From Hyaloraphidium curvatum (Eukaryota > Monoblepharomycota > Hyaloraphidiomycetes > Hyaloraphidiales > Hyaloraphidiaceae), in contig JAIVFI010000003.1 in the NCBI GenBank assembly GCA_025558095.1, positions 124,001-188,000 of the forward strand: a DNA stretch of 64,000 nucleotides, in the 5' to 3' direction. The notes beneath the pieces were generated by a model, which saw only the letters and a program-made list of their open reading frames with translations, was not told where the DNA came from and ran no database searches. Below, piece after piece: positions 54,485 to 57,242 of this stretch; position 1 is the first letter of the stretch; every line of letters starts with the position of its first letter. The translations under genes and the position numbers were made by a program.

Positions 54485-55127
54485 ATGGAGTCCCTCGTCG
54501 ACCGCTACGAGAGCGCACTCGCGTCGCACGACTTCCTCGTCGTGACGTTCTACCGCGGGCGCTGGTGACCCTGGTGCATCGTGCGCTCTCCGGGTTGCCC
54601 TTCCCCCCACGCCGCTGACCGCACCGCCGCAGATGTTCCTCCGGCTGCTGGACCGCGAACGCGCGGCCATCGAGGCGGTCGGCGGGCACATCTTTGCCGC
54701 CGTGTCGTCCGAGCCTCTGGCGCGCGTCGAGCGGGCCCGCGGGGAGTTCGCTGTCGGCTTCCCGCTCGAGTCGGACCCGGCGCACGCGCTGGCCGCGCAC
54801 CTCCGCGCCAAGGGCGTGATCGACCTCGTTATTTCCCCGCCGCCCGCCGTGCTCTCGGAGAAAATCAGGGCGGAATACGAGCACGGGATGGTGCAGCCCG
54901 GGATCGCCTTTGTGGCGCGGGACGGCACCGTGATCCTGGCCGAGGCCATAGTGCCCGCCTCGGAGAACAGGGGCGGTGCATCGCACCGTCCGCTGCCCGC
55001 GGACCTGTGGAAGGCCGCGAAGGAGGCGATCGAGGCGTACAGGGCCGACCCCGTGGGGTTCAAGGCCGCGCCGCTGCGCGAGGTGAGGAGGATCGAGGTG
55101 CTGGACAAAGCTCTGAGTCGGCTGTGA
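54485..55127 (+). CDS. AhpC/TSA-type peroxiredoxin-like protein, candidate selenoprotein
   Basis: Two exons, 54485-54580 and 54633-55127 (52-bp intron GTGCGC...CAG, phase 0), 196 residues if the TGA at 54566-54568 is read through. Exon 1 ends FYRGRW-TGA-PWCI; homologues have W-C-P-W-C or W-C-P-F-C here, so the TGA sits exactly at the first redox Cys (residue 28), with Cys31 as partner (UxxC). The following exon (FLRLLDRERAAIEAVGGHIFAAVSSEP, HALAAHLRAKGVIDLV, GIAFVARDGTVILAE) is clean and colinear with the thioredoxin-fold family. Stopping at TGA would give a 27-residue peptide. So the reading is recoding to selenocysteine, or a Cys-to-stop mutation. A hairpin with SECIS-like features lies 70-135 bp past the stop codon. 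Family members reduce peroxides or disulfides. Confidence 0.7.
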
Positions 55128-55195: not shown

Positions 55196-55261
55196 ACTGC
55201 AGGCTTATGATCGCCGTTCCGGAGACCTACTAGGACGGGGCGCGCGGGATGGAAAAGCAGT
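55196..55261 (+). promoter_or_regulatory. SECIS-like hairpin in the 3' UTR
   Basis: Lower helix ACTGC (55196-55200) / GCAGT (55257-55261). Then an internal loop and ATGA at 55207-55210. Upper stem 55211-55220 (TCGCCGTTCC) pairs with 55237-55247 (one bulged C; some G-T pairs). The apical loop is 16 nt (55221-55236), and GA at 55248-55249 faces the TGA. This gives the UGA/GA core and helix I-loop-helix II order of eukaryotic SECIS elements. The apical loop lacks the usual AA and has only a CC. Drawn by eye; no folding energy calculated. Confidence 0.4.
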
Positions 55262-55563
55262 GCGGCCGTGCTCCGGGAAACACGATGGCATGCAGGTCAT
55301 GTGCGCACACAGCTGTTTTTTTGGCTTTAGGGGCGAGAAAATCGCTCGAGCGGAGTTGGAAAACGAGACGAGCGGAGTCACCAGGCGTCCCCGCTCTCCC
55401 AATCCGTTCCTGCCCACCCCATCAAACGGACACGGTCGGGCCGGCGGGAGCAGCGACGCCGTCTCCGCCATCACCCGTCATTGGACGTCGCGCCCGCGGC
55501 ACGCGCTCTCCGCCGCGGCCGCCGCCTGTCGGACTTTTCGAGGTTGCACGGGTCCGAACCGCG

Positions 55564-57242
55564 ATGTCTCCCGGCGGCCCAAACCCGCAGGCCACGGCCG
55601 GCCCGCTGCGGAACGTCGGCGTCGCCTTCATCGACGTCAATTTTCCGCGGGAGGAGCTTTTGGAGCTGCGGAAGAAGGTCGTCGAGGGAGGCGAGTAACT
55701 CTGCGGAGCGGCGTTCGGACACGTCACTGACCACCAAAACCAGGCGGTCAGCTCAAGCCGGCCGGCGAAGCCGACGTCCTCGTCACCGCGCTCAAGTCTC
55801 CCTCGCGCATTGGCCGGCACATCCCCGCCGAGGCACCCAGCGTACCCGTCGTCCAGCCAAAGTGGATCTCCGAAACCATCGACGCCGGCTTCACCCTGCC
55901 GTTCGGGGAATACTCAATCGAGATCCCCGACGATCTGCGCCCGCGCAAGCGCCCTCGGATTGCGCCTCCTCCCCACCCTGCCCCCGCCATCGCGAGCCCG
56001 CCGGCCCGATCGGACGACGAGTCGGAGCGCAACACCACGGACGACGAGAGGCGCCTTCCCCCCGGCGCCGGCAACCTCGACCCCCGCTTCCGCAACACCA
56101 AGTACGCCTGCCAGCGGCACACGCCCCTGGAGCACCGCAACCGCGCGCTGATCGCCGAGCTCGAGGTCGTCGCGCGCCAGCGCGAGCTGGCCTCGGAGGA
56201 CGAGCGCGCGCTGGCGTACCGCAAGGCCGCCGCCGCGCTGAGGGCCTACCCGCGCGACATCCTCACCGCGATCGAGGCGGGTAAGATCCGCTGCATCGGG
56301 CCAAAGATCGGAGCGGCGATCAGGGAGTTCCTCCGCAGGGGCCACGTGCCCGAAGCCAAGGAGCTGCGCGCGGATCCCGAGTTCCGGGCCGCGGAGCTGT
56401 TCCTCGGCGTCTACGGCGCCGGGCCTGCGGCGGTCAGGGCGTGGATTGCCAAGGGGTACCGCTCGCTGGACGAGCTCAAGGAAGGGGAAGGGTACGACTC
56501 CGAGGAGGAGGAGGCCGGGCAGAGCAAGCGCAAGAAGGGGCACGACGGACATGATCGGCACTACCGTGGCCTCACCGAGAAGCAGAAGAAGGGCCTCAAG
56601 TGGTACGATGCCCTCCGCGAGACCATGTCGGGCGCGGACGCCGAGGAGATCCACGACCTGGTAGCCGCCGAGGTCGAACGGATCGTCCCGGGCTCGATCG
56701 TGGAGCACCTCGACAAGTACCGTCGCGGCAAGCGCGAGGGCATCAAGAACGTGGACCTGCTCGTCACGCCGCCGTCGATCGAGCGCTTCGACCGCCTGCT
56801 CTCCAAGCTGCTCTCCGTCCTCGACAAGAAGGGCCTCATCCTCGACGTGTTCATGCTCAAGGATGACGACGAGGATGACGCCCCCAGGACGCTCCCCGGC
56901 AGCGCCATCCTCGCGCGCCTCAAGACCCTGCCCCCCGAAGCCGACCCCACGCGCCGCGCAAGCCTGATCCTCCGGCAGCCCTCGTCGGGCAGGCCCCGCG
57001 CGGTGCACATCGTCGTCTGCCCCACCCCCTGCCGGCCATACGCCCTCGCCTGCCTGACCGGATCGACGATCTTCGTCCGGTCGATGCGCGAGTACCTTGA
57101 CAAGGAGAAGGGGTACAAGATCAGCAACCACGGCCTGTTCGACCTCGTGACGGGGGCCAGGGTCGCGGAGTGCGAGACCGAGAGGGACGTGTTCGACAAG
57201 ATGGGGCTGCCGTGGATCGAGCCCGAAGGGAGGAACTGCTGA
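55564..57242 (+). CDS. BRCT-containing family X DNA polymerase (Pol lambda/Pol IV-like), degenerate active site
   Basis: Two-exon model 55564-55677 and 55752-57242, 534 residues. The exon 1 end is uncertain: a GTCGTC donor keeps frame but drops a VVEGG piece expected in the BRCT; a donor at 55686 would not. After the BRCT (VGVAFIDVNFPREELLELRKK...PVVQPKWISETIDAG) come a nuclear signal (RPRKRPRI), the 8-kDa region (YRKAAAALRAYPRDI, helix-hairpin-helix RCIGPKIGAAI), a second hairpin (FLGVYGAGPAAVRAWIAKG), KYRRGK and the thumb (YALACLTGSTIFVRSM, YKISNHGLFD). Active enzymes have GS at the nucleotide site, GDVD, and a later Asp. Here these read DK, NVD (Asn at nt 56748-56750) and His (57006-57008), so only one of three metal Asp remains. 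Polymerase activity is doubtful. Confidence 0.8.

Follow-up and report, generated by a model that had tools for sequence, protein, structure and literature searches.

Within a 64,000-nucleotide (nt) stretch of contig C3 (C3:124001-188000, hereafter the window) of a genome most likely belonging to an early-branching fungus, a peroxiredoxin-like (Prx-like) gene carries an in-frame UGA at 54566-54568 that very likely encodes selenocysteine (Sec) in a UxxC protein. The codon lies in a spliced frame with no other internal stop, the same genome holds Sec machinery genes and further selenoprotein genes with canonical Sec insertion sequence (SECIS) elements, and a SECIS-like hairpin follows the Prx-like gene itself. 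Fungi were thought to be selenoprotein-free until 2019, and the known cases are few. What is new here, very probably, is the occurrence of a UxxC Prx-like selenoprotein in a fungus, UxxC AhpC-like selenoproteins being already known from prokaryotes and one alga.

Spliced across one intron, the gene reads MESLVDRYESALASHDFLVVTFYRGRW[TGA]PWCIMFLRLLD...KALSRL*, a total frame of 197 codons and 196 residues with a single internal stop (Table 1). The first-pass annotation had described one TGA at the first cysteine of a C-P-W-C motif, followed by a phase-correct intron, and the spliced translation bears out both points. It had also held that the TGA cannot be spliced out with the motif kept; enumeration of every possible single intron with GT/GC-AG ends and a length of 35-400 bp agrees, in that all stop-free alternatives delete RGRWxPWC. 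One such alternative, joining a GTGACG donor at 54542 to the acceptor at 54632, is in frame and stop-free, and its transcript might be proposed as the real product. However, it would remove VTFYRGRWxPWCI, the strand and active site that homologues keep unchanged, and its donor lacks the +5 G present in the GTGCGC donor of the annotated intron, so that we regard this proposal as exceedingly improbable. The SelenoH gene of the same genome has a comparable GTGCGT donor. The guanine-cytosine (GC) content of exon 2 by codon position (0.75/0.53/0.86; stop-free frame 54546-55124) resembles that of neighbouring coding frames. The gene is single-copy, the sole other match in the genome being insignificant (E=0.1).

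With the TGA read as Cys, the product matches Pfam AhpC-TSA at E=1.4e-5 and 25.4 bits, just under the curated cut-off of 26. Bacterial homologues annotated as "peroxiredoxin-like family protein" (e.g., L023, L025, and L027) share 23-35% identity over most of the length, which upholds the earlier claim of colinear homology on both sides of the TGA. The first-pass annotation had further proposed examining homologues for Cys at this site, and in an alignment from a search that did not require Cys there, each of the seven bacterial plasmid homologues shows Cys in the TGA column. The surrounding FYRG, W and P are invariant among the same seven, as are columns F22-G25, W27, C28 and P29 in a second alignment of five of them. 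The second Cys of CxxC is Ser in one plasmid homologue, and the TGA therefore replaces the more conserved of the two cysteines. The nearest relative found, in an Acidimicrobiales metagenome-assembled genome (L047), is 39% identical over 157 residues and reads WCPFC at the site. Searching with the single sequence recovered no bacterial relatives, whereas a profile search recovered 502; the pattern used in the latter demanded WCP, which makes the invariance of Cys among those 502 circular, and it is not used as evidence. Searches of phages and of viral contigs were negative. By its active-site motif and profile match, the predicted product is a peroxiredoxin-like AhpC/TSA protein of the PRX_like2 type. 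It shares FYRGxWCPxC and a colinear C-terminal half with the bacterial Cys proteins, which differ in having Cys at the position of the TGA.

The first-pass annotation had supposed that the organism possesses Sec machinery and had named a genome without it as grounds for abandoning the reading. Searches of the host assembly (31.9 Mb, 55 contigs) recovered the complete set: tRNA-Sec(UCA), PSTK, SepSecS, SPS2, eEFSec and SBP2. The tRNA-Sec scores 78.2 bits, is called tRNA-SeC(tca) by ARAGORN and is directly followed by TTTTT. SepSecS is present at E=7e-58, and SPS2 carries its own in-frame TGA in the SPS2 Sec motif (ELKG[TGA]GCKVQQ), with a canonical SECIS 54 nt past the stop. For eEFSec there is a match to the domain-IV model together with exons such as VDGYSVIGKGLFKRETVLQPFIGMFV. 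The PSTK model match is weak and below the family cut-off, and its exons LFIGLPGAGKSFARRAL, VLLVDDNMYYSSMR and LATPLETCLERN are clear. SBP2 is represented by RRIVLGLREVLRHCMRGKLKSVIV and then VPVVFSMTRRQLASAIV..VGILSYDG. Beyond the model matches, the eEFSec, PSTK and SBP2 exons are assigned by their presumed resemblance to the human proteins. Matches to TIGR00475 (SelB) were considered for EFsec and rejected, as they are mitochondrial IF2, EF-Tu, EF-1A, eRF3 and eIF2-gamma. The SBP2-like gene (L132, C31:198.3k) is followed by ankyrin-like repeats in the same open frame, which may reflect either a fusion or a neighbouring gene. Contig C31 also bears two AIR-synthase-like frames, related to SelD by profile (L008 and L009, at 90.1k and 77.5k), of equal length and 12.5 kb apart on one strand; they are probably a recent duplication.

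At least five selenoprotein genes besides the Prx-like gene are present, namely SPS2, SelenoW, SelenoH, SelenoK and a deiodinase-like gene. SelenoW (YCGA[TGA]G; Rdx, 2e-13) has its SECIS 57 nt past the stop. The deiodinase-like gene reads GSHS[TGA]PPFR (Pfam T4_deiodinase, 1.2e-23; Rfam SECIS, 32.8 bits), SelenoK reads GGGGS[TGA]GR* (SelK_SelG, 1e-10; Rfam SECIS, 28.7 bits), and SelenoH reads CNS[TGA]GTYRGRANKALEALKA, with CNS[TGA]GTYRGRAN at its Sec site (Rfam SECIS, 21.6 bits). A second SelenoW-like gene (L037, C41, minus strand) reads VGVK[TGA]G and has a SECIS of 21.9 bits (Rfam). Altogether the genome holds seven canonical SECIS, and recoding of UGA by such elements is active in it as far as sequence can tell. 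The strongest of all, at 36.2 bits (Rfam; C30:527668-527729, minus strand, L034), lies behind a PRXL2/SelenoU-like gene (VVRRAG-CCLCREDAARW, MGGALVVG); no Sec codon could be placed in it, and it may encode a further selenoprotein whose Sec has moved. The GPx genes contain no TGA within the matched stretches, and the sole active site located among them reads NVASRCGY; thus this is not, as far as seen, a genome with Sec-GPx. A genome-wide use of UGA as an ordinary sense codon was considered and rejected, for TGA is the normal stop of the Prx-like, SelenoW and deiodinase-like genes. Within the Rdx family, Cys and Sec members coexist: another gene (L033, C20:442984-443287, plus strand) has CPKC where SelenoW has CxxU. 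The second SelenoW-like gene has Gly in place of the usual Cys of CxxU, with TGA and SECIS kept.

Downstream of the Prx-like gene, where the start of the next gene near 55565 limits the 3' untranslated region (UTR) to about 440 nt, a SECIS-like hairpin sits 79 nt past the stop (compare SPS2 and SelenoW above). The predicted fold comprises helix I, AUGA, a helix II of 10-11 bp, an apical GAGA with a small CCU/AGG helix, and GAU. Measured against a SECIS test (AUGA, 11-13 nt, AAR, GA quartet), the hairpin matches in ATGA, spacing and quartet, and has AGA for AAR. Seven of 1000 dinucleotide shuffles of the 3'UTR score as well, none of these with ATGA. We also scanned with a rule that matches all seven known elements of the genome, relaxing AAA to ARA; three matches occur in 128 kb (both strands of the window), the Prx-like hairpin being the strongest. 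An Rfam scan of the whole window reported no SECIS. Taken together, these features are suggestive, and we treat the hairpin as an atypical, unproven SECIS candidate.

Table 1. Features of the Prx-like gene and its 3'UTR, in window coordinates.
Feature	Position	Strand	Details and basis
Exon 1, Prx-like selenoprotein candidate (MESLVDRYESALASHDFLVVTFYRGRW-U-PWCI)	54485..54580	+	Translation, intron enumeration
In-frame TGA, proposed Sec codon U28 of UPWC, at the redox Cys of FYRGxW[C]PxC	54566..54568	+	Translation, alignments
Intron, 52 bp, phase 0	54581..54632	+	GTGCGC donor, CTGAC branch-like site, GCAG acceptor
Exon 2, 164 codons and ordinary TGA stop	54633..55127	+	
SECIS-like hairpin, 3'UTR	55196..55261	+	ATGA 55207-55210, 12 nt, AGAC 55223-55226, GGAT quartet 55247-55250, helix I ACTGC/GCAGT

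Several observations weigh against Sec at this codon. The seven canonical SECIS uniformly show ATGA, 12-13 nt, AAA(C/G) and a 3' strand (T/C)GA, whereas the Prx-like hairpin has AGA for AAA, GGA for (T/C)GA, and T for A or C after ATGA. Rfam SECIS_1 reports no match in the Prx-like 3'UTR at E<=10, the folding energy is ordinary for the composition (z 0.15), and the relaxation to ARA was made post hoc, with the candidate already seen. Moreover, just five codons out of 197 lie a single base away from TGA (the TGC/TGT ancestor of the TGA codon, W27, W30, C31, and W158), so a random nonsense change to TGA would fall here in roughly one case of five. By itself, the position is accordingly modest evidence, and the strong proof comes from the genome context. 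Finally, the gene is single-copy, and the evidence comes from one assembly and from genome sequence alone.

Some of these points speak for a young pseudogene or truncated allele, in which the TGC or TGT codon of the catalytic Cys has become TGA, so that translation ends after 27 residues: the gene lacks the canonical SECIS of the other selenoprotein genes, has no second copy, and would be struck at this codon by about a fifth of possible TGA changes. Against this, the gene shows no further disabling change, its frame, splice sites and codon-position GC being intact; this is a Sec-decoding genome, and the TGA occupies the single residue where Sec would be expected, with a SECIS-like hairpin at the right distance. 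By our rough estimate, single-TGA redox-Cys pseudogenes number well under 0.1 per genome, as against several real selenoproteins, and in a genome with at least five others such a pseudogene would be far rarer than one more selenoprotein. We therefore consider a nonsense mutation unlikely. An assembly or base-call error, with TGC or TGT as the true codon and an ordinary CPWC peroxiredoxin-like protein, would fit with the Cys in all homologues found and with the reliance on one assembly. Yet the contigs are long (C3, 1.15 Mb) and the frames otherwise intact, it is very improbable that a random error would fall on precisely this base, and an error leaves the 3'UTR hairpin unexplained; it merits little credence. 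The first-pass proposal that the gene is recoded thus finds strong, though not conclusive, support in a genome with full Sec machinery and other selenoprotein genes.

If UGA is indeed read as Sec here, the product would be a peroxiredoxin-like thiol oxidoreductase with UPWC at its active site, Sec standing in for the reactive first Cys of CxxC. The tRNA-Sec would be charged with Ser and converted by PSTK and SepSecS using selenophosphate from SPS2, and the resulting Sec-tRNA would be delivered by eEFSec, guided by SBP2 on a 3'UTR SECIS. On this reading the Prx-like hairpin would be functional, Sec would be inserted at the UGA, and the protein may reduce peroxides or disulfides via a selenenylsulfide with the cysteine of PWC.

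Use of Sec at UxxC in AhpC-like proteins, as the first-pass annotation had stated, has precedent in both prokaryotes and an alga. The diatom Thalassiosira oceanica has AhpC_b, a UxxC AhpC-TSA selenoprotein with a SECIS, all of whose homologues are prokaryotic Cys forms (PMC7539508). Compared with AhpC_b as described, the fungal gene is alike in encoding a eukaryotic AhpC-TSA domain with a proposed UxxC and with Cys homologues found only in prokaryotes; it differs in that AhpC_b has an algal host and the SECIS candidate of the fungal gene is atypical. Prokaryotic families include the "Prx-like thiol:disulfide oxidoreductase" (UxxC/UxxU, PF00578), the "Redoxin family protein" (UxxC) and the "Peroxiredoxin-like family protein" cd02970 (UxxS) (PMC13188914). 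As proposed for the fungal gene, Sec in these proteins takes the place of the leading Cys of CxxC within a peroxiredoxin-like fold, but they depend on bacterial or archaeal Sec decoding, whereas the fungal gene is interrupted by a spliceosomal intron and followed by a 3'UTR of eukaryotic type.

The assignment of the host rests on its EF-1A, which carries a GWKKEGKAGEVTGK insertion that we take to be typical of opisthokonts, and on three chitin synthase division-1 loci; together these point most likely to an early-branching fungus. Selenoproteins were reportedly described in such fungi by Mariotti et al. in 2019, most of them, it is said, without a consensus SECIS. The earlier expectation that standard SECIS are often missing does not hold generally in the present genome, where seven are canonical and the Prx-like candidate is the atypical one. 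That few early-branching fungi use Sec is in keeping with papers that cite Mariotti et al.: one places the nine known species in Chytridiomycota, Zoopagomycota and Mucoromycota (PMC11378755), another counts seven of the nine as Harpellales (PMC10386755), and a third gives the GC content of Zancudomyces as 35.6% (PMC12611240). The GC content of the window is about 66%, which argues against Harpellales. The present genome resembles the early-branching fungi reported to use Sec in its complete eukaryotic Sec machinery and in selenoproteins including SelenoH, and is unlike those mostly Harpellales species in its GC-rich window, its 31.9 Mb and its seven canonical SECIS. The fuller proposal, that a fungal lineage not among the nine reported species has a UxxC Prx-like selenoprotein, which uses a variant SECIS (AGA for the apical AAR) while the other genes use canonical ones, is tentative, and we would put it at somewhat less than an even chance.

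The host genome offers a rich fungal system for dating the loss of Sec in fungi. With the Prx-like gene, fungi would gain a UxxC redox family, and standard could be set against non-standard SECIS within one genome; if true, the AGA variant would offer a natural test of the departure that the SECIS consensus tolerates. Gene finders will have cut selenoprotein genes of this kind at the TGA. Beyond the 3'UTR, the downstream neighbour (window 55540-57242, plus strand) resembles a gene for a family X DNA polymerase with BRCT.
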